Made by a program: the position numbers and the translations under genes
Notes under the pieces: generated by a model
Told to the model about the DNA's origin: nothing
The model's database searches: none
The model's input: the letters and a program-made list of their open reading frames with translations, nothing else
Part shown: positions 12,503-55,885 of the stretch, piece after piece
Position numbering within the stretch: position 1 is the first letter of the stretch
Layout of the letters: the number at the start of each line of letters is the position of its first letter
NCBI RefSeq assembly: GCF_026151205.1
Contig: NC_087072.1
Span: 15,166,169 to 15,230,168 of the forward strand
Origin: Bolinopsis microptera
Lineage: Eukaryota > Ctenophora > Tentaculata > Lobata > Bolinopsidae
Direction: 5' to 3'
Length of the DNA: 64,000 bases

Positions 12503-24908
<12,406 letters not shown>

Positions 24909-27459: not shown

Positions 27460-27464
27460 GTTTA

Positions 27465-30236
27465 CACTGCACAGAATACTCTATAGTAACACGGTACACT
27501 GCACAGAATACTCTATAGTAACACGGTACACTGCACAGAATACTCTATAGTAACACGGTACATTGCACAGAATACTCTATAGTAACACGGTACACTGCAC
27601 AGAATACTCTATAGTAACACGGTACACTGCACAGAATACTCTACAGTAACACGGTACACTGCACAGAATACTCTACAGTAACACGGTACACTGCACAGAA
27701 TACTCTATAGTAACACGGTACACTGCACAGAATACTCTATAGTAACACGGTACACTGCACAGAATACTCTATAGTAACACGGTACACTGCACAGAATACT
27801 CTATAGTAACACGGTACACTGCACAGAATACTCTATAGTAACACGGTACATTGCACAGAATACTCTATAGTAACACGGTACACTGCACAGAATACTCTAT
27901 AGTAACACGGTACACTGCACAGAATACTCTACAGTAACACGGTACACTGCACAGAATACTCTACAGTAACACGGTACACTGCACAGAATACTCTATAGTA
28001 ACACGGTACACTGCACAGAATACTCTATAGTAACACGGTACACTGCACAGAATACTCTATAGTAACACGGTACACTGCACAGAATACTCTATAGTAACAC
28101 GGTACACTGCACAGAATACTCTATAGTAACACGGTACACTGCACAGAATACTCTACAGTAACACGGTACACTGCACAGAATACTCTATAGAAACACGGTA
28201 CACTGCACAGAATACTCTATAGTAACACGGTACACTGCACAGAATACTCTATAGAAACACGGTACACTGCACAGAATACTCTATAGTAACACGGTACACT
28301 GCACAGAATACTCTATAGTAACACGGTACACTGCACAGAATACTCTATAGTAACACGGTACACTGCACAGAATACTCTATAGTAACACGGTACACTGCAC
28401 AGAATACTCTATAGTAACACGGTACACTGCACAGAATACTCTATAGTAACACGGTACACTGCACAGAATACTCTATACTCTATAGTAACACGGTACACTG
28501 CACAGAATACTCTATAGTAACACGGTACACTGCACAGAATACTCTATAGTAACACGGTACACTGCACAGAATACTCTATAGTAACACGGTACACTGCACA
28601 GAATACTCTATAGTAACACGGTACACTGCACAGAATACTCTATAGTAACACGGTACACTGCACAGAATACTCTATAGTAACACGGTACACTGCACAGAAT
28701 ACTCTATAGAAACACGGTACACTGCACAGAATACTCTATAGTAACACGGTACACTGCACAGAATACTCTACAGCAACACGGTACACTGCACAGAATACTC
28801 TATAGTAACACGGTACACTGCACAGAATACTCTATAGTAACACGGTACACTGCACAGAATACTCTATAGTAACACGGTACACTGCACAGAATATTGTATA
28901 GTAACACGGTACACTGTACAGAATACTCTACAATAACACGGTACACTGCACAGAATACTCTATAGTAACACGGTACACTGCACAGAATACTCTATAGTAA
29001 CACGGTACACTGCACAGAATACTCTATAGAAACACGGTACACTGCACAGAATACTCTATAGTAACACGGTACACTGCACAGAATACTCTACAGCAACACG
29101 GTACACTGCACAGAATACTCTATAGTAACACGGTACACTGCACAGAATACTCTATAGTAACACGGTACACTGCACAGAATACTCTATAGTAACACGGTAC
29201 ACTGCACAGAATATTGTATAGTAACACGGTACACTGTACAGAATACTCTACAATAACACGGTACACTGCACAGAATACTCTATAGTAACACGGTACACTG
29301 CACAGAATACTCTATAGTAACACGGTACACTGCACAGAATACTCTATAGTAACACGGTACACTGCACAGAATACTCTATAGTAACACGGTACACTGCACA
29401 GAATACTCTATAGTAACACGGTACACTGCACAGAATACTCTATAGTAACACGGTACACTGCACAGAATACTCTATAGTAACACGGTACACTGCACAGAAT
29501 ACTCTATAGTAACACGGTACACTGCACAGAATATTCTATGATAACACGGTACACTGCACAGAATACTCTATAGTAACACGGTACACTGCACAGAATACTC
29601 TATAGTAACACGGTACACTGCACAGAATATTGTATAGTAACACGGTACACTGCACAGAATACTCTACAGTAACACGGTACACTGCACAGAATACTCTATA
29701 GTAACACGGTACACTGCACAGAATACTCTATAGTAACACGGTACACTGCACAGAATACTCTATAGTAACACGGTACATTGCACAGAATACTCTATAGTAA
29801 CACGGTACATTGCACAGAATACTCTACAGCAACACGGTACACTGCACAGAATACTCTATAGTAACACGGTACACTGCACAGAATACTCTACAATAACACG
29901 GTACACTGCACAGAATACTCTATAGTAACACGGTACACTGCACAGAATACTCTATGATAACACAGTACACTGCACAGAATACTCTATAGTAACACGGTAC
30001 ACTGCACAGAATACTCTACAGTAACACGGTACACTGCACAGAATACTCTATAGTAACACGGTACACTGTACAGAATACTCTATAGTAACACGGTACACTG
30101 CACAGAATACTCTATAGTAACACGGTACACTGCACAGAATACTCTATAGTAACACGGTACACTGCACAGAATACTCTATAGTAACACGGTACACTGCACA
30201 GAATACTCTACAATAACACGGTACACTGCACAGAAC
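27465..30236 (+). repeat. 32-bp minisatellite, about 87 copies
   Basis: The unit is ACACTGCACAGAATACTCTA plus TAGTAACACGGT, head to tail with no spacers. Variants are ordered rather than random: TACAG for TATAG, GTAACA versus GAAACA, and ATTGTATAG recur, and a block of about 320 bp seems duplicated (around 28690-28950 and 29010-29270). One unit carries an extra CTCTATA (near 28474). Confidence 0.97.
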
Positions 30237-30412
30237 ACTGTTCGGATATTGTACACAATATAGTCAAACTGTACGGAGATTGTACCTAATATAGTCACAC
30301 TGTTCGGAGATTGTAAAACGTCTGCCCGAGAATTAGGTTTAAAATACTCTAAGGTGAACCTTTCTCCGAGATCTGGTTTTAAAACGGTACGAGATAAATT
30401 TCTGCGGTAAAT

Positions 30413-46457: not shown

Positions 46458-46463
46458 TCAGAG

Positions 46464-46997
46464 AGTAGTATACAATATATGGCCCCGCTGTATCACCTAA
46501 AAGTTAGGCACCATTTACCCAATTTCCTTATATGGTAATGTCACATAATCAATAATAATTTGTCGGCCGGGTGGTGTAGTGGTAACACAATTGCCTCCCA
46601 AGCAGAAGATCCAGGTTCGAATCCGGTCGAGAGCCAGTCGATCAATTACCAAGCTATGATTTGGTATAGCTTCGGCTGGTTATATTCACTCTGTGACTGG
46701 TAGGACTAGCCCCCCCCCCCCTACTGTTAGTATAGCGCTTACACACAGTGACTTAGGGTTACCGTAGGGGAGATTTTTATCAGTGTAACGGTGAAATTAT
46801 TATATTATTTAGATATCATAAATAAACTTTATGAGAAATAAGACAAACCGTTTGAAACTTAAAAAATCATACACATTTAAAAATACAATGTCAATCGTCA
46901 GCAATTTTCAGTACTTAAGACTTTGTACGATCATGTCACATTTCTTAACGACTGATTTCAATAAGGGAATATTCTCATTTATAAGTTTACAAAGGAT
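46464..46997 (+). repeat. Left terminal inverted repeat of the Polinton-type element
   Basis: Matches 55349-55879 in reverse complement with few differences (an extra AT near the end, poly-C length, single bases). It includes a tRNA-like sequence and the 3' end of the zinc-finger gene. Confidence 0.92.
46564..46637 (+). ncRNA. tRNA-like sequence (Gly-CCC-like) in the left TIR
   Basis: GGGTGGTGTAGTGGTAACAC resembles a D-arm with box A, and GGTTCGAATCC is a perfect box B. The CTCCCAA loop between short stems would read CCC (glycine). The acceptor ends pair poorly and the T-stem has mismatches, so this is more likely a tRNA-derived polymerase III promoter or pseudo-tRNA than a working tRNA. It is present once in each terminal repeat. 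Confidence 0.6.
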
Positions 46998-47753
46998 TAA
47001 GAGATTATCAGTTTTTAGTACAAGATTGAAAATTAATTGTTCTTTGTTTGATAATATAGAATCCATTTGTAATCCACGTGTTTGAAAGTAATTATCTAGC
47101 ATCACGAAAAAATCAGTCTTCAATTCATAACTTGAAAAAAGATCAAAGCAGTCATCCTCTTGGCAGGCTTGGTTCTTTAAATGTTTCTCAATTGACCGCA
47201 GAGTCTTGGTTAGCATATTAGAGCCAGCTTTAAGTCTTGTCATTTTTCGTCTGCGCTTCACACGTGGATGATCATTGCTACTATATGAGGAACTTTCATC
47301 GTCTGTACTTTCATTGAGGTCATTGTCTTCATTTATTGATTCATTGTCACTTGAGTAATCCTTTGTAGAATCATCATCTTTATCTTCATCCATGCTATCA
47401 TCAGTGTCGGTAGGATATTCATCGTCCATACTATCACCTGAATTTTGTATTGCAAGATTGCATAGGGTGTAAAAAACAATATTAAACAGCTTGACAGTGT
47501 AACATTATTTTCAGATTTTCATGTTGTTTTTAAAACTTCGAATCTATTGAATTAAATTACCTGTCTTCGATAAGGAGTTCATCTCGTGTTTCTGATCATT
47601 CTTGTTTCCAGAGTTGTTTGTTGTAATGGTCTCATCATCAGACACATTTTTATTCTCATAGATGTCATTCTTACGATGGAAGCTATATCGATGACTGGCT
47701 AGACTGCGTGAACTAGCAAATGTTTTATCGCATAATTCACAGAAATTGCTCAT
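46908..47753 (-). CDS. Two-exon C2H2 zinc-finger protein with acidic middle
   Basis: Exon 1 is 47753-47561 and exon 2 is 47437-46908. The donor is GTAATT and the acceptor AAAATTCAG, joined in phase 1, giving 240 aa. One C2H2 finger lies at the N-terminus (FCELCDKTFASSRSLASHRY, residues 4-26). A strongly acidic Asp/Ser stretch follows (about 66-118), then a basic patch (RVKRRRK) and a helical C-terminal region (about 130-240) with LTKTLRSIEKHLK and LLILCKLINENIP. It is likely a nuclear or DNA-binding accessory protein of the element; no enzymatic motif. A TATAAATA lies about 85 bp upstream of the start (47836-47843). The last codons lie inside the terminal repeat, so the other repeat holds a duplicate of the 3' end. 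Confidence 0.8.
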
Positions 47754-47835
47754 GATGATTCCAATTAAAGTGTCAGAGCAGCAAAATTGATGCGTATGCT
47801 AGGGGCAAAAAGTGGAAATGATGCTGATTCTATTG

Positions 47836-47843
47836 TATTTATA
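47836..47843 (-). promoter_or_regulatory. TATA box for the zinc-finger gene
   Basis: TATAAATA on the minus strand, 83-90 bp upstream of the ATG at 47753. The distance allows a short 5' leader. The site is inferred from its sequence only. Confidence 0.45.
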
Positions 47844-48007
47844 CACAATTTTGGAAATTTCAATTTTTAGATGTAACTTTTTGCAATCATATAATGAAGC
47901 AATATACAGCTGACGCTGCAACATGTAGGAATACTTCCCAGTGGGGAACGCACCAGACAGGAGAAGGGGAATAAATTCAAATTCTACATCAACTAGTCAG
48001 ACGGAGA

Positions 48008-49786
48008 GTATCATTATATATCATATGTATCATTTTAGTTATCATTATATCATTTCAGCTATCATTATATCATTTTAGATATCATTATGTATCATTTTAG
48101 ATATCATTTTAGATATCATTTTAGATATCATTTTAGATATCATTTTAGATATCATTTTAGATATCATTTTAGATATCATTTTAGATATCATTTTAGATAT
48201 CATTATGTATCATTATGTATCATTTTAGATATCATTATGTATCATTATGTATCATTATGTATCATTTTAGATATCATTTTAGATATCATTTTAGATATCA
48301 TTTTGTATCATTATGTATCATTATGTATCATTTTAGATATCATTATGTATCATTATGTATCATTTTTGTATCATTTTGTATCATTTTAGATATCATTATG
48401 TATCATTATGTATCATTTTAGATATCATTATGTATCATTGTGTATCATTTTAGATATCATTATGTATCATTGTGTATCATTTTAGATATCATTATGTATC
48501 ATTATGTATCATTATGTATCATTATGTATCATTATGTATCATTTTAGATATCATTATGTATCATTATGTATCATTTTAGATATCATTAGGTATCATTTTA
48601 GATAACATTGGGTACCATTTTAGATAACATTATGTATCATTATGTATCATTTTAGATATCATTATGTATCATTATGTATCATTTTAGATATCATTATGTA
48701 TCATTATGTATCATTATGTATCATTTTAGATATCATTTTAGATATCATTTTGTATCATTATGTATCATTATGTATCATTTTAGATATCATTATGTATCAT
48801 TATGTATCATTTTTGTATCATTTTGTATCATTTTAGATATCATTGTGTATCATTATGTATCATTTTAGATATCATTATGTATCATTGTGTATCATTTTAG
48901 ATATCATTATGTATCATTGTGTATCATTTTAGATATCATTATGTATCTTTATGTATCATTATGTATCATTATGTATCATTTTAGATATCATTATGTATCA
49001 TTATGTATCATTTTAGATATCATTGGGTATCATTTTAGATAACATTGGGTACCATTTTACATAACATTATGTATCATTATGTATCATTTTAGATATCATT
49101 ATGTATCATTGTGTATCATTTTAGATATCATTTTAAAGATATCATTTTTAGATATCATTTTAGATATCATTATGTATCATGATATATCATTATGTATCAT
49201 TATGTATCATTATGTATCATTATTTATCATTATTTATCATTATGTATCATTTTAAATATCATCATGTATCATTGTGTATCATTTTAGATATCATTTTCGA
49301 TATCATTTAGATATCATTTTAGATATCATTATGTATCATTTTGTATCATTTTGTATCATTTTGTATCATTTTAGATATCATTGTGTATCATTATGTATCA
49401 TTTTAGATATCATTATTATCATTATGTATCATTAGTTATCATTTTAGATATCATTATGTATCATTATGTATCATTTTAGATATCATTATGTATCATTGTG
49501 TATCATTTTAGATATAATTATGTATCATTAATCATTATGTATCATTTTAGATATCATTATGTTACATTATGTATCATTTTAGATATCATTTTATATATCA
49601 TTATGTATCATTATGTATCATTATGTATCATTTTAGATATCATTATGTATCATTATGTATCATTATGTATCATTATGTATCATTATGTATCATTATGTAT
49701 CATTATTTATCATTATGTATCATTATGTATCATTATGTATCATTATGTATCATTATGTATCATTTCAGATATCATTGCATATCATT
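48008..49786 (+). repeat. Two-word satellite (ATCATTTTAGAT / ATCATTATGT), 1.8 kb
   Basis: The whole stretch is a string of two closely related monomers, a 12-mer and a 10-mer, plus rare variants (TTGTGT, TTTTGT). Their order is itself duplicated: the series near 48325-48560 recurs near 48773-49010, an offset of about 448 bp. It fills the space between the two genes of the Polinton-type element. Open frames across it are artefacts. Confidence 0.95.
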
Positions 49787-50088
49787 TAAGGCATCATTAT
49801 TTAGTTTTTATATCATTATGTATCATATCGTTTTTGAAATTAAAAAAAAAATGTATTATTACAAATTCTATTGTAATTTATTCATGATTTTTATGGTTCT
49901 ACTGATTTGATTAGGCGATTATAAGTAATTTGGAATACAATCAAGACACATAAATTCAAAAATGTGACAAATGAAAATTTGTTACAACAATTGGTAATGT
50001 TATCAAGATTCAAAAAGTCAGTATCAAAAATATTTGAATTAATCATTACATTTTTCCGTAATCAGACATGAAAAACAAATCAAATGTT
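49787..50088. other. AT-rich spacer downstream of the polymerase gene
   Basis: No gene. It holds the presumed 3' end of the polymerase transcript. Confidence 0.4.
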
Positions 50089-53000
50089 CTAAATCAGAAA
50101 ATCAATTTTAAATAGTTGTTTATGTCCATAACTTAATGTACTGATTCCATCGTCTAATATAAACTTTTTGTCGTCGAATCCTGATAGTCCACGCTTTTGT
50201 ACAACAATACTAGATATTTTATTGCCAAAAGTGCGAATTGTTTGAGACTTTGTTATTGTAGTGCATTGAGTGTTCAAAACTCTTCTATAGTCTTCGTGGC
50301 GGATCTTTCTTTGCGCTGTTTTAGAGATCCCTTTTGCAGTCACCGAATGACCGATGGAACAAGATGATGTGCAATCATGAGCTTTTTCACACTTGAACAA
50401 CAGCTTTTTGGTTACGACCGAGTACATTTTAGGCTTTAATGCAATAACTTCGCTGATTATTTCAGTCGGCTTTTCATCAGAGAACTTCCCTGGAACCTTT
50501 TTGTTTGCAGGGTCATGAAATCTTGCCAGCGGTGTACCGTTTAGATAGCCAGACAAATCCATTAGGTTCCGCATTCTGTACAAATCTTCATATCCATCCC
50601 TGGTGAAAACACCATAGATGAAGCTGTCGGTATCACTAAGGATAAGTTTGATGTCGGTTCCATATTTTGGTTTGAGAACATCATACCAGAACTCCCCCAT
50701 GATGTTTTTCGCATTTTCCAATACAATAAATCCACAAGCTATGGGTTTGTTCAGGACTAAATTGCGTTTTACTGATTGTACAACAGTTGTTTGGTCATCC
50801 AGCATGTGAAAACCAATGAACTGTGGTTTAGAAGTAAGACGTTTTGCAGATTTTTGATCTTTCACTATCTCAACATTTGTGCGATTTCTGAGACTTTCAA
50901 TAAACTTTCCGTAAATGGAGTTATTGGCAAGCTTAAAGAAGTCTTTCTCAAAATCCGATTGTGCATTTTGTCTTTTTGTGGAGTTGAATTCAATGTACGG
51001 AGTCACAAAATCTGTTTGGTCTGCGGCTAAAACCCGATGAATCTTTTTAACTTCAAGCCCTTTGTTGACGCATAACTGGAGGGTTTTCAGGGAGCATACG
51101 AAATGTTTCTTATCTTTCAAATCAGGAACAAGTTTGCGTGAGGCCTTAAACTTTTCACTGTGTAGTTCCAGAAACTTTTTGTTGAAGGGTGATAATTGAT
51201 GTTCTTCAATCATTTTGCTCTCCACAGCGAGGGGGTAATCATTGTGGTAGTCATGAAGAAACGCTGGATAGTGCAGATCAATTTCCAAAATATAGCATGT
51301 TTCCCCTTCTGGGTCTATCTTGGAAGTGTCAAGTAGATCTATTTCATCCCTGTCTAGCCATCTAAAATTCTTATATGGCAACTTGTACGACATTGACTTT
51401 CCATAAAGGTTATTTGCATCCACATAATGGATGAATGATGTAGGCTTTGTTGTGTCATGGTCGTCCAAATAAGGGTTGTTGGCTTTGAAATGACGATGGT
51501 TAACCGTAGTGACTCCTCCTCGCAGATTCTTCTCAATGAAGGTGTACATGTCAATGTCAGTCATGTACTCGATATTCACATTTGTCATCTTCAGCATCGC
51601 ATCCCAAGAAAATCCTGGAAAACTCATATAGTGACAACAGTCTAGGCCATAGTAGTCCAAGCAAAGTTTTCTAAAACTCTCAAATACATCACATAATATG
51701 AGAGCATCTGTTTTTACATAAATCTCCATGTAATCGAGCAAAGATTGACAGTTCATGGTTTTGTAGACATCTTGAGCTCGAGTGTAGTCAGCATCTGAGA
51801 TGTCTTCTTCCCTCAGTTTACTGTAAAACGCTTGCTTGGGTGGTAGGTTCTTCTCCGAGAAAACTGAGAAAGATGAAGCATAGTCATAGAAATATACGCC
51901 TTTTTCTGACAAAAGTTCGTAGTTTTCTGGGAACTCTTCTTTTAATTGCTTGAACTTTTCGACACCTGACTTTTTCATATTTGATGCCAATCTATCAAGG
52001 GAAGTAGAAAGAAATGCAAAGCTGTCCAAGAAAATAAAGTTGTCAGTAAAAACAGCTTTGAACTTTTCAAGTGTCTCAGGGATTACATCCAATCTCTCGA
52101 CTCGTTTTGTCAAATCTAGTAGGAAGAGGTTGAGATCATATCCTTTTAGGTTATGTGCAAATGCTGGAACTTTTTTAGATCTGTTGAAATAGTTTATGTT
52201 GCAGGAATTGCATGCTGCACCTCTGAAGTTATTCTTTTTCTGCAAGTGGTCATGATCTCGAACTGGGTAATTTTTTTCAGATTCCCAGTTCAATTTTCTG
52301 TTACAAATGTGACAGATTGTTGCACTCTTAAACTTCACTTCATCCTCGGGCGTCATATCTATTGAATGTTGGTTCTTTTCATAGCATTTCATCATTTTAT
52401 CATGTATCTTAGCTAGCTGTGATATGAATTCTTCAGTCACAACATTTGGATTTTCATGGCTAAAAGTGATCACTTCCGAGTTGTATTCCGAAAACTCTGA
52501 CACAGTAACGATGCAAAGGCTGCAAGGTACATGTTTTTGATACTTTTCTGTGTAGCTCGAGGTATCTTTTTTACTGCAGGTACTGTAAGGTACAGTTAGA
52601 CATTCAAAATCAAAGTAAACCGTAAACAGTTTTTTGTCTTGCTTATGTAATGCCTTAAACTCAATGACTCCTGGATCCGGCATCTTGACTAACTGATTAA
52701 TTCCTTGTTTACAGTTTTGGTAGTGAGTCTCATGGTTCTGTGAAGATACAAAACCATGCATACATTTTCGGCAGTAAAACATCGTGTGATGATGCTTAGT
52801 GCGATGTCTCATGAATGCGTTAAAATCTTTGATCAGTAAATAATGAGCAAATCCTTCATTTTCCAAGTAGAGTAGGTCAACTGGTTCGCCAATTTCACTG
52901 CCATGTTTTAACGGCAAAACACATTCTTCCTCAACACACCACTGGAAAACAGAAATTGAGACCTTATTCAACTCCTCAACTTTTGCTATATCTTTGATCT

Positions 53001-53559
53001 TTACTGGGAATTGAACCGTACCCATATTTATCTTCCCGATGTGAGACAGATACTTTGTGTGTCTATCAATATTGGAGCCTGTTGCAGGATAGAGCTTTGC
53101 CAAAAGGCAATACAAGAAGCATTTATTGTCTGAGGACTTAATGTTTAGAACTGATCTCATTTTACTTAGCTTCTTCGGAATGGAAACGTTGCCTGAAGCA
53201 GAAAGTGGAGAGTATTTTGCAATTTCGATATGTGCCCATTGCAATTCGTCAAAAATCCAACCACTTCCCAATCGTTCGTAGGTGTCAATTCCATGCCGAA
53301 TATAGCTCTTAGCACGTGACAGAAAGTCATCAACATTGTCTCCTAGTAGTAAGGGTTCACAAATTGACCTGAAAACCTTTTCAGATTGTCCCTCTTCTCC
53401 ATTGACATGCTTGTGGAATGATAGGGAAATGACTAGCTGTGCTTTAACAGGATGTGACTGTAAAATTTGGATAATCTTTTGCTTAGCTGCAGAGCATGAC
53501 TCCAAAAGAATTGTATCATAATCTGAACTTTTCGCAATGCTGAGATCAAACGACTTAAA
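50089..53559 (-). CDS. Polinton-type family B DNA polymerase, frame without intact N-terminus
   Basis: The frame is open from 53559 to the stop at 50089; residue numbers below count from 53505. A CxxC...H...C finger lies at 244-265. The 3'-5' exonuclease has Exo I DFE (299-301), Exo II HNLKGYD (451-457) and Exo III YVKTD (596-600). An HNH-like cysteine/DHDH block lies between them (398-435: CHICNR, VRDHDH, CNSCN), as in protein-primed polymerases of Polintons and linear plasmids. The polymerase has motif A DANNLYG (696-702), motif B KLANNSIYG (858-866) and motif C DTDS (958-961). The C-terminal DDKKFILDDG...TLSYGH matches Polinton polymerases. All catalytic residues are present. Its role is replication of the element from a protein primer. 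The upstream zinc-finger frame (53433-53864) overlaps out of frame, so one frameshift or an unusual junction separates them. Confidence 0.93.
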   Translation of the reverse strand, partial: FKSFDLSIAKSSDYDTILLESCSAAKQKIIQILQSHPVKAQLVISLSFHKHVNGEEGQSEKVFRSICEPLLLGDNVDDFLSRAKSYIRHGIDTYERLGSGWIFDELQWAHIEIAKYSPLSASGNVSIPKKLSKMRSVLNIKSSDNKCFLYCLLAKLYPATGSNIDRHTKYLSHIGKINMGTVQFPVKIKDIAKVEELNKVSISVFQWCVEEECVLPLKHGSEIGEPVDLLYLENEGFAHYLLIKDFNAFMRHRTKHHHTMFYCRKCMHGFVSSQNHETHYQNCKQGINQLVKMPDPGVIEFKALHKQDKKLFTVYFDFECLTVPYSTCSKKDTSSYTEKYQKHVPCSLCIVTVSEFSEYNSEVITFSHENPNVVTEEFISQLAKIHDKMMKCYEKNQHSIDMTPEDEVKFKSATICHICNRKLNWESEKNYPVRDHDHLQKKNNFRGAACNSCNINYFNRSKKVPAFAHNLKGYDLNLFLLDLTKRVERLDVIPETLEKFKAVFTDNFIFLDSFAFLSTSLDRLASNMKKSGVEKFKQLKEEFPENYELLSEKGVYFYDYASSFSVFSEKNLPPKQAFYSKLREEDISDADYTRAQDVYKTMNCQSLLDYMEIYVKTDALILCDVFESFRKLCLDYYGLDCCHYMSFPGFSWDAMLKMTNVNIEYMTDIDMYTFIEKNLRGGVTTVNHRHFKANNPYLDDHDTTKPTSFIHYVDANNLYGKSMSYKLPYKNFRWLDRDEIDLLDTSKIDPEGETCYILEIDLHYPAFLHDYHNDYPLAVESKMIEEHQLSPFNKKFLELHSEKFKASRKLVPDLKDKKHFVCSLKTLQLCVNKGLEVKKIHRVLAADQTDFVTPYIEFNSTKRQNAQSDFEKDFFKLANNSIYGKFIESLRNRTNVEIVKDQKSAKRLTSKPQFIGFHMLDDQTTVVQSVKRNLVLNKPIACGFIVLENAKNIMGEFWYDVLKPKYGTDIKLILSDTDSFIYGVFTRDGYEDLYRMRNLMDLSGYLNGTPLARFHDPANKKVPGKFSDEKPTEIISEVIALKPKMYSVVTKKLLFKCEKAHDCTSSCSIGHSVTAKGISKTAQRKIRHEDYRRVLNTQCTTITKSQTIRTFGNKISSIVVQKRGLSGFDDKKFILDDGISTLSYGHKQLFKIDFLI

Positions 53560-53864
53560 TTAATAAAGTACCCCGAAACTGAACTACAGTGCTCATCATT
53601 GTCCAGATGTTCATGAATCCCAGAGAAGCGATTGCATAAAGATTCATCGATCTGAGAGCGACACAGAAGCTCATGCCTTGTCAATTTGTCCGAGCGAAAC
53701 AACTTTTTACAGCTGTTGCAGGTTTCTTTGCTGTTGTGTGTCGGAAGATGATGTTTTAGATTATCAGCCCTCATCCTCTTGAAACATACCGGACACTCTT
53801 CAACTTGATGTTTGCCATGTTGGCTTTTTGCTGAAAATCTTCTCTTCATTTCTGTCGAGAGCAC
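53433..53864 (-). CDS. N-terminal zinc-finger part of the polymerase gene, out of frame
   Basis: Begins MLSTEMKRRFSAKSQHGKHQ. Two zinc fingers follow: CPVCFKRMRADNLKHHLPTH and CNSCKKLFRSDKLTRHELLC. Related Polinton polymerases carry such fingers at their N-terminus, so this is probably the true start of the same gene. The polymerase frame has a stop at 53560-53562. The switch from this frame to the polymerase frame must lie between about 53560 and 53433, through an indel or a very short intron. Beyond that point the residues here are likely meaningless. Confidence 0.7.
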   Translation of the reverse strand: MLSTEMKRRFSAKSQHGKHQVEECPVCFKRMRADNLKHHLPTHNSKETCNSCKKLFRSDKLTRHELLCRSQIDESLCNRFSGIHEHLDNDEHCSSVSGYFINLSRLISALRKVQIMIQFFWSHALQLSKRLSKFYSHILLKHS

Positions 53865-53865
53865 A

Positions 53866-54476
53866 GAAAATCAAACGTAACGAAAAATGCAGTTTGAGAA
53901 ATGAGCTGATGAAGGTCTCACTCCCCTTATATAGTCGATTGCAGAAAAATCAACTATTACTGAAAAGATCAAGTGTAAATCAGGATTTTGTCCTTGACCA
54001 GTTCAAAAACAGCAAAGAGAGCAGGTAAAATCAAACGTAACGAAAAGTGCAGTTTGAGAAATGAGCTGATGAAGGTCTCACTCCCCTTATATAGCCGATT
54101 GCAGAAAAATCAACTATTACTGAAAAGATCAAGTGTAAATCAGGATTTTGTCCTTGACCAGTTCAAAAACAGCAAAGAGAGCAGGTAAAATCAAACGTAA
54201 CGAAAAGTGCAGTTTGAGAAATGAGCTGATGAAGGTCTCACTCCCCTTATATAGCCGACTTCAGAAAAATGAACTATTACTGAAAAGATCAAGTGTAAAT
54301 CAGGATTTTGTCCTTGACCGGTTCAAAAACAGCAAAGAGAGCAGGTAAAATCAAACGTAACGAAAAGTGCAGTTTGAGAAATGAGCTGATGAAGGTCTCA
54401 CTCCCCTTATATAGCCGACTTTAGAAAAATCTACTATTACTGAAAGTGTCAAGTGTAAATCAGGATTTTGTACTTG
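53866..54476 (-). repeat. Four tandem 160-bp repeats, each with a TATA box
   Basis: The period is exactly 160 bp for the first three copies; the fourth is partial and diverged. On the minus strand each has CTATATAAGGGGAGTGAG (TATATAAG at 53926-53933, 54086-54093, 54246-54253 and 54406-54413). The first is about 62 bp upstream of the zinc-finger ATG at 53864, a proper core-promoter distance. The array looks like a multiplied promoter. Plus-strand frames of 66 codons in each unit fall in different phases and are by-products. Confidence 0.85.
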
Positions 54477-55348
54477 AATCAGAATTTTGTACTATAACAA
54501 AAATGTATGCAATTGACGAACAATAATTATCCTATAAACAAATTATTAAAAAAAGCTCGCTCAATTACTGACAGTGCTTAACATTTGCAATTGACTTGGT
54601 ACTAGTTCAAACTACATGCATCTCACATTACTCAGTTAGATTAATGGTCATACTGCAGTGCAAGGCTATTAGATTGTAAGCCGGGTTCGAATTCGCCTAT
54701 ATCTTTATATTGATCACTGCCTACTACATCTTACATTTCTCAATTTAGTGGGAGTTCCCACATACATTTGGATGGAGAGAACGCTCTCCTAATTCCGGTT
54801 TTTCACGGGAGTCGACCCCGAACTGCGATATAGCTGACTCATGGCACTGGAGATAGACTAAGATCTCTCTAACCGAGCCGTCAACATCAGCCTTATCACA
54901 GTAAATTTTGATTGCTTTTTTTTGAGTTTTGTAAGAGTAGCTTGACACAGATTTGAACACTGGATGTTCCGATTAACTGTCTGATAATTACAGGTGTACG
55001 CCACAGAGGGGCCCAAATTGATTCAATTACAGTGATATTTACAAACATATATAGATATATTGCAATGTTATTATGGTGTATCATGTTACCAATGAATTTG
55101 GTGCCTTTCCTAATAACAATTATGACGTGTACATTGCACAGTTATGTTTTCACCTACTGTACACTCTTGTAACTGTCATAACCATTTGCAGTTATGTAAT
55201 AATATCTTGTTGCATAGAGGAATATTGCTGCATCTACTGTTTTAGGCTGAGTTAATTAGTTGAATCTGGTTAGATTGATGGTAGCCAGCTGATTTCATTT
55301 AATTTCATCATTACACTGATAAAAATCTCCCCCACCCTAAGTCACTCT
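54477..55348. other. Right non-coding part of the Polinton-type element
   Basis: No gene. It holds the SINE-like heads and, at 55305-55348, a broken duplicate of an inner terminal-repeat segment (TTACACTGATAAAAATCTCC and CCTAAGTCACT; compare 55556-55603). That duplicate is evidence of past recombination at the inner edge of the repeat. Confidence 0.5.
54803..54888 (-). ncRNA. tRNA-like SINE head
   Basis: On the minus strand, GGCTCGGTTAGAGAG (box A-like) is followed about 50 bp later by GGGGTCGACTCCC (box B-like). This is the layout of a tRNA-derived SINE. A second box B-like GGGTTCGAATTC is on the plus strand near 54681. Pairing is poor, so a working tRNA is unlikely. Confidence 0.35.
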
Positions 55349-55879
55349 ATCCTTTGTAAACTTATAAATGAGAATATTCCCTTATTGAAATCAGTCGTTA
55401 AGAAATGTGACATGATCGTTAAGTCTTAAGTACTGAAAATTGCTGACGATTGACATTGTATTTTTAAATGTGTATGATTTTTTAAGTTTCAAACGGTTTG
55501 TCTTATTTCTCATAAAGTTTATTTATGATATCTAAATAATATAATAATTTCACCGTTACACTGATAAAAATCTCCCCTACGGTAACCCTAAGTCACTGTG
55601 TGTAAGCGCTATACTAGCAGCAGGGGGGGGGGGGGCTAGTCCTACCAGTCACAGAGTGAATATAACCAGCCGAAGCTATACCAAATCATAGCTTGGTAAC
55701 TGATCGACTGGCTCTCGACCGGATTCGAACCTGGATCTTCTGCTTGGGAGGCAATTGTGTTACCACTACACCACCCGGCCGACAAATTATTATTGATTAT
55801 GTGACATTACCATATAAGGAAATTGGGTAAATGGTGCCTAACTTTTAGGTGATACAGCGGGGCCATATTGTATACTACT
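55349..55879 (-). repeat. Right terminal inverted repeat of the Polinton-type element
   Basis: Partner of 46464-46997. It starts inside with a duplicate of the last codons of the zinc-finger gene (LINENIPLLKSVVKKCDMIV then a different end) and carries the second tRNA-like sequence. Confidence 0.92.
55713..55789 (-). ncRNA. tRNA-like sequence (Gly-CCC-like) in the right TIR
   Basis: Inverted copy of 46564-46637 with the same box A and box B. The two lie in opposite orientation and both would be transcribed towards the element's interior. Confidence 0.6.
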
Positions 55880-55885
55880 TCAGAG

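Follow-up and report, generated by a model that had tools for sequence, protein, structure and literature searches.

A short Polinton/Maverick-type element in Bolinopsis microptera that probably replicates itself and borrows its integrase

The element and its copies

The window analysed here is a stretch of 64,000 nucleotides from the ctenophore Bolinopsis microptera (G000:C1:15166169-15230168, in a genome of 265 Mb and 232 contigs), and our subject is a complete mobile element of 9,416 bp at its positions 46464-55879, which carries a DNA polymerase gene (PolB) and a zinc-finger gene and resembles Polinton/Maverick transposons. The element has AGTAGT...ACTACT termini; it starts with AGTAGTATAC, and its far end is the complement of AGTAGTATAC. 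TTAGGG arrays and, next to one locus, a protein frame judged by eye to be of animal type point to an animal host. The features of the element and its borders are as follows (TIR, terminal inverted repeat):

46458..46463, no strand: 6-bp target-site duplication TCAGAG, left copy, read from the sequence
46464..47004, plus strand: left TIR, beginning AGTAGTATAC
46908..47437, minus strand: zinc-finger gene, exon 2, whose C-terminal part enters the left TIR
47561..47753, minus strand: zinc-finger gene, exon 1, with one C2H2 finger
48008..49764, plus strand: satellite of 10/22/32-bp units (GTATCATTAT), its length differing among copies
50089..53505, minus strand: main open frame of PolB, 1,138 aa
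53433..53849, minus strand: N-terminal zinc-finger part of PolB, in this copy in another frame than the main one
53867..54477, minus strand: tandem array, upstream of PolB, of about four 160-bp units that all contain TATATAAGG
55342..55879, minus strand: right TIR, ending ACTACT
55880..55885, no strand: 6-bp target-site duplication TCAGAG, right copy, read from the sequence

The initial annotation had described AG-starting TIRs of about 530 bp between perfect TCAGAG duplications, 1.8 kb of satellite, and a length of 9.4 kb that was not the result of truncation, and all of this stands: the arms pair over about 535 bp with 524 identities, 4 mismatches and 7 gap positions (three blocks, 96-100% pairing), both ends and both copies of the duplication are present, and the satellite is real.

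A DNA search of the genome with the left TIR, in which 40 of 194 candidates were scored and 44 matches obtained (the counts from this and all our other whole-genome searches are lower bounds), yielded at least five two-ended, collinear copies of 8.2-9.4 kb including that of the window, the further complete ones being C3:8636913-8645649, C3:11680502-11688675, C7:1344454-1353446 and C9:2276551-2285161, together with a fragment of the family on C4. The TIR had been proposed as a probe for other copies, and it thus recovered the same two genes at five different sites. The order common to the five copies is zinc-finger gene, satellite (0.7-1.75 kb of the same unit), PolB and, upstream of PolB, a promoter-like unit of about 160 bp that is repeated three or four times and may well act as a promoter. 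The longest collinear blocks are 95.6-97.0% identical to the C7 copy, and the matching TIR of the C9 copy measures just 162 bp. The five copies lie between five different perfect 6-bp duplications (TCAGAG, CCTTGA, CGTGTC, ATATTA and GTAGAC), and perfect duplications in five of five copies are far beyond chance. All five have the Maverick traits of TIRs, (AGT)2//(ACT)2 ends and a 6-bp duplication, such ends with a 6-bp duplication being described as the commonest vertebrate Maverick motif (PMC8097293).

Part of the TIR (window 46542-46774, query about 80-311) is a dispersed repeat with some 30 further occurrences that are about 80% alike; these secondary matches were first read as further copies and are now assigned to the repeat. 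Its six-frame text suggests, as a provisional assignment, a sequence like a short interspersed element, perhaps derived from a tRNA; ARAGORN found no tRNA in it.

Coding content and selection

The main polymerase frame contains DFECL, HNLKGYD, YVKTDALIL, YVDANNLYG, NNSIYGK and DTDS, which we take to be the exonuclease and polymerase motifs. We identify it as PolB because these motifs align with those of the PolB of another locus, L027, which has a clear Pfam DNA_pol_B_2 match (E 3.5e-11) and to which it is 37% identical. The initial statement that the polymerase keeps all its residues holds for this 1,138-aa frame; it does not extend to the N-terminal zinc-finger part, which lies in another frame in the window and in one frame with the rest in the other four copies. 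An unbroken frame of 1,246 aa is present in three of the five copies (C3b, C7 and C9). Residues 394-437 of the window PolB form a weak endonuclease VII-like (HNH) stretch (21.9 bits, against a Pfam cut-off of 23.6); the stretch occurs in all five PolB proteins scanned (E 0.0024 to 8.7e-7) and passes the cut-off only in L027 and in L054, the canonical Polinton described below. Polintons and Mavericks share with the element a PolB of this type, which has a long N-terminal part and includes an endonuclease VII-like stretch, as well as the AGTAGT...ACTACT ends, TIRs of hundreds of bp and 6-bp duplications.

Pairwise comparison of PolB over up to 1,133 shared codons gave an omega (ratio of nonsynonymous to synonymous substitution rates) of 0.13-0.44 in all ten pairs of copies, of 0.13-0.17 in the four pairs that include the most diverged copy, C3b (synonymous divergence, dS, 0.068-0.091), and of 0.06 against an 82%-identical lineage (dS 1.85). 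The short form must therefore have depended on a working PolB during its multiplication.

The zinc-finger gene, in a model made by eye with no transcript, has two exons and a phase 1 GT-AG intron (47438-47560) whose splice sites are present in all five copies. Exon 1 holds a single C2H2 finger and exon 2 an acidic stretch, a basic patch (KRRRK) and a helical C-terminal part; the structure predicted for exon 2, at low confidence, consists of helices only (predicted local distance difference test score, pLDDT, 60). Exon 2 is broken in C3a.

The absence of integrase, ATPase, protease and capsid genes had been noted at the outset, and our searches agree with it. A Pfam scan of the six-frame segments outside PolB and the satellite found the zinc finger only; it covered 2,439 letters (X spacers included) of 3,543 listed residues, and did not include the segments with tandem repeats, most of those in the TIRs, or the N-terminus of PolB, which was scanned separately. 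Except for satellite frames and frames overlapping PolB, the remaining frames of the window copy do not exceed 84 aa. A retrovirus-type integrase was found in the element neither by Pfam, on open reading frames and most six-frame segments, nor by tblastn with an integrase of the same genome, which in the window and loci L001-L056 matched L054 and L055 only; over the same set an ATPase query matched L054 only. No protease or major capsid protein was found by Pfam and frame length, and no parvovirus-type capsid or helicase frame in the frame list or by Pfam. Integrase is likewise absent from every one of the short elements, or mini elements, that we read.

Relatives of the element and the resident Polintons

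A genome search with PolB (41 of 213 candidates scored) gave three groups of relatives. The first, at 59-60% PolB identity, comprises C5 (L026), C10 (L053) and C13:4662617, which has stops inside. L026 is a second one-piece element, 9.7 kb long, with 96% TIRs, a zinc-finger gene, a satellite, 134-bp tandem repeats and an intact PolB of 1,244 aa that is 59% identical to that of the window. The persistence of the two-gene content across two PolB lineages supports the view that the reduced element is a lineage of its own. L053 (1305-7344) is also a one-piece element, and its PolB shares 96% of its DNA sequence with the PolB of L026; its zinc-finger gene is of another type and in the opposite orientation, and the combination of a PolB of one lineage with a zinc-finger gene of another type indicates that a module was exchanged.

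The second group, at 82% PolB identity, consists of four palindromic elements with PolB inverted in two arms: C9a, C9b, C7 and C13, with the duplications GACGTC, CTTGTT, TACTTG and TCTTAG, respectively, and a partial second PolB in C13. The C9a palindrome, read through in two loci, has no zinc-finger gene detectable by tblastn, and the centre of the C7 palindrome has, besides the PolB ends, no frame longer than 117 aa and one repeat-derived frame of 99 aa. Ends of another family, AGTAGTATATGATGC, lie beside PolB palindromes at L031 (about 1003) and L035 (about 1498) (minus strand), in L035 within a few bases of the palindrome, as nested or adjacent insertions. The third group, at about 37% identity, contains L027 and many decayed copies. 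In a tree of 15 rows (13 of them different), the first two groups and the window family form one clade of 11 rows with 100/100 support and a long stem; the four rows outside it have long branches whose order is not resolved. IMG/VR yielded no close relative; two distant ones, L055 and L056 (33-36% identity), lie on contigs of 17.4 and 15.1 kb, the former with an integrase match.

Searching with the zinc-finger protein of L026 gave 55 rows, of which 39 were kept; the other 16 were additional pieces of copies already counted. They represent at least 24 loci, and at 15 of these a stretch of 15 kb contains two or more copies. Five palindromes with zinc-finger genes were examined, on C11 (duplication GACAAC), C5 (GATATC), C7 (GGCGGC), C6 (five of six bases match) and C2 (read at one end only, which sits inside a (TTAGGG)n telomere-like array; L048 1-110, G000:C2 near 1111350). 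C11 (L052) is the sole one read through; at the other four the lower-bound PolB searches list no PolB. The eight zinc-finger frames compared, one of them from L026, are all unbroken, with an omega of 0.26-0.85 where defined. The C11 element is 88-94% alike to the PolB palindromes over about 200 bp at its ends and 97.5-97.8% from the promoter repeats to the centre (2.35 kb per arm against L051), and its zinc-finger gene occupies the place that PolB has in them. In L052, L024/L025 and L051, PolB-only and zinc-finger-only palindromes have the same termini, the same promoter repeats and the same central part, much like two segments of a single genome. At L050 (C13:10781202-) a 160-aa open frame of unknown kind adjoins a type-3 zinc-finger gene.

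Within one element, the PolB arms differ at 3 positions in C9a and 1 in C7, the zinc-finger arms at none in three of three pairs, and longer arm stretches are 98.8-99.8% alike; differences between elements are mostly larger, the exceptions being PolB of C7 and C9b (3-4) and the zinc-finger genes of C5 and C7 (2). Such near-identity is compatible with, and no proof of, a replication step that would copy one arm into the other. Assembly artefacts are disfavoured as an origin of the palindromes because those examined have their own flanks and matching 6-bp duplications, C6 (five of six bases) and C2 (one end) being the exceptions, and because C9a has an unpaired centre of 303 bp. A tentative reading, somewhat less probable than its opposite, is that these are two-segment mobile elements, in which PolB-only and zinc-finger-only palindromes insert separately, each with a 6-bp duplication, through the integrase of resident Polintons, and in which the near-identity of arms would reflect copying of each element from one strand via a hairpin intermediate, the window element being the one-piece form. 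With the genes on separate palindromes that have common ends and centre, PolB and the zinc-finger protein of these sister lineages would each work in trans on the element that encodes the other. Bidnaviridae have a two-part genome, and in this they are like the split PolB and zinc-finger elements.

A canonical Polinton stretch, L054 (C1:344500-354400), encodes an integrase (rve 5.7e-13, Chromo 7.3e-12), a packaging ATPase, pieces of PolB and a zinc-finger protein with, as judged by eye, a helical middle part. A genome search with its integrase (103 of 271 candidates scored) gave 73 match rows, from which we dropped second pieces of the same loci and 17 rows at 25-32% identity, in frames of 421-1,555 aa taken as retrotransposons. 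An ATPase lies within 2 kb at 33 of the 37 Polinton-like integrase loci; the others are four short fragments on C5 (5371807, 5510449, 5532708 and 11184797), in whose vicinity the search lists no ATPase. Among the matches listed, 17 reach 300 aa or more at 57% identity or higher, and eight of these have no internal stop. A profile search with rve (150 of 394 candidates scored) returned mostly retrotransposon-sized frames, and the Pox A32 profile for ATPase had no genome match, a false negative, as the later ATPase search showed.

Ten of the 33 integrase and ATPase loci have PolB no more than 20 kb away (four by proximity count, six read by hand), and the lower-bound searches place none within that distance of the other 23, among them G000:C11:20204061, C10:2226337, C5:23442336, C1:55190, C13:6972653 and C9:8362625. 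The idea of a third segment, consisting of integrase elements without PolB, was given up after an improved PolB query had revealed parts of PolB next to another six integrase loci; as the PolB searches give lower bounds, it is weakened rather than refuted. None of 15 mini elements lies within 20 kb of any of the 33 loci.

Elsewhere in the window are a 32-bp unit repeated in tandem about 87 times, its copies being 96% alike (27463-30239), and a nearly pure GA repeat of about 515 bp (18588-19102).

Probable self-replication and borrowed integration

We consider it likely that the element is a reduced Polinton/Maverick that lost the genes for integrase, packaging ATPase, protease and capsid and has been maintained as a separate lineage, replicating with its own polymerase and integrating through an integrase supplied in trans. 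Given Maverick ends and 6-bp duplications, mini elements without integrase, and integrase-bearing Polintons in the same genome, integration in trans is the simplest mechanism. PolB, whose long N-terminal extension is a likely protein primer, would start at the TIR ends and copy the element as a linear DNA molecule, protein-primed replication by PolB having its basis at the level of the family (PMC4061559), from which we infer it here. The zinc-finger protein could assist, for instance by attaching to the termini or to single strands displaced during copying. A resident full Polinton would supply the rve-chromodomain integrase, which would recognise the AGTAGT ends and join them to the chromosome, generating the 6-bp duplication. 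Self-replication with a borrowed integrase would thus make the element a replication-autonomous, integration-dependent parasite of Polintons. The initial annotation had offered a replication-only lineage using a foreign integrase as one explanation, and the same two-gene content at five sites argues for it, the trans action itself remaining presumptive.

Several observations weigh against this reading. The trans action of the integrase is argued indirectly, and the terminal-protein role of the PolB extension by analogy. The tblastn searches for integrase and ATPase were of limited reach, since they missed the ATPase-like frame of L055, and the window PolB has by itself no Pfam DNA_pol_B_2 match. 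Its frame is broken between the N-terminal zinc fingers and the rest, that of C3a is broken at another place, further in, and the flanks of L026 show no perfect 6-bp duplication. Zinc-finger exon 2 is less constrained than PolB (omega 0.18-0.98); with only 4-19 changes per pair, the constraint on this gene is less certain. The other zinc-finger proteins show homology to the one encoded by the full Polinton across just the 27 columns of the finger, and none was detected between them and exon 2 of the window element.

The element could instead do without a borrowed integrase, if PolB, through its endonuclease VII-like HNH stretch, or the zinc-finger protein cut the target with a 6-bp stagger; we consider this unlikely. 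The stretch is present in every PolB scanned and no mini element read has an integrase, as such a mechanism would have it. However, the same stretch occurs in the PolB of the integrase-bearing L054 and is described for Spodoptera Mavericks (PMC5803895), and it is therefore not specific; the ends and the duplication length are of Maverick type, and exon 2 is modelled, at low confidence, as helices only. A little less probable still is the initial alternative of a recent internal-deletion derivative of a full Polinton, moved wholly in trans and with decaying genes. It fits the retention of just two Polinton genes and the broken PolB frames of the window copy and C3a, but it is not favoured because PolB is under purifying selection, both among copies that all lack the other genes and against the sister lineages, and because the identical layout recurs at 59-60% PolB identity; moreover, no longer element with the window TIRs was found among the 44 matches (best 40 of 194 candidates). 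That the copies are domesticated or satellite remnants, kept by the host and not self-mobile, is very improbable, since low copy number (at least five two-ended copies) and a large satellite array stand against near-identical TIRs, differing duplications and collinear copies at five sites, which point to recent mobility.

Nine of 72 Polintons were without capsid genes, with concerted loss of capsid, protease and ATPase genes as in the window element (PMC4028283); in the latter the integrase is gone too, whereas a retrovirus-type integrase has been stated to be present in all Polintons (PMC4642659). Integrase-less Polinton-like viruses, proposed in the same source to use the integrase of resident Polintons in trans, are described as retaining capsid proteins and ATPase, whereas the window element retains PolB, with no capsid module found. 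Bidnaviridae, as described in PMC4061559, have a Polinton-derived PolB with an N-terminal putative primer domain and inverted terminal repeats, like the window element. Bidnaviruses also carry parvovirus-derived capsid and helicase genes, of which none was found here. The element differs from Polintons and Mavericks in general by its length of 8-9 kb, by the lack of any detected gene for integrase, ATPase, protease or capsid, and by a reduced form that recurs in two PolB lineages.

Among transposons, the placing of the two genes on palindromic partners is reminiscent of a segmented genome, and our searches of the open-licence literature turned up no prior report of it. An element with no gene for its own insertion, whose relatives carry PolB and the zinc-finger gene on separate palindromes, probably relies for insertion on the enzyme of larger elements resident in the genome. 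Replication would then be separated from integration in these Polintons, the polymerase being kept under selection while the integrase apparently comes from another element, and the occurrence of one-piece, split and full forms in one genome makes the question testable. Since Polintons are regarded as a hub of eukaryotic DNA virus evolution, a lasting branch with neither capsid nor integrase would show the transposon end of their range.

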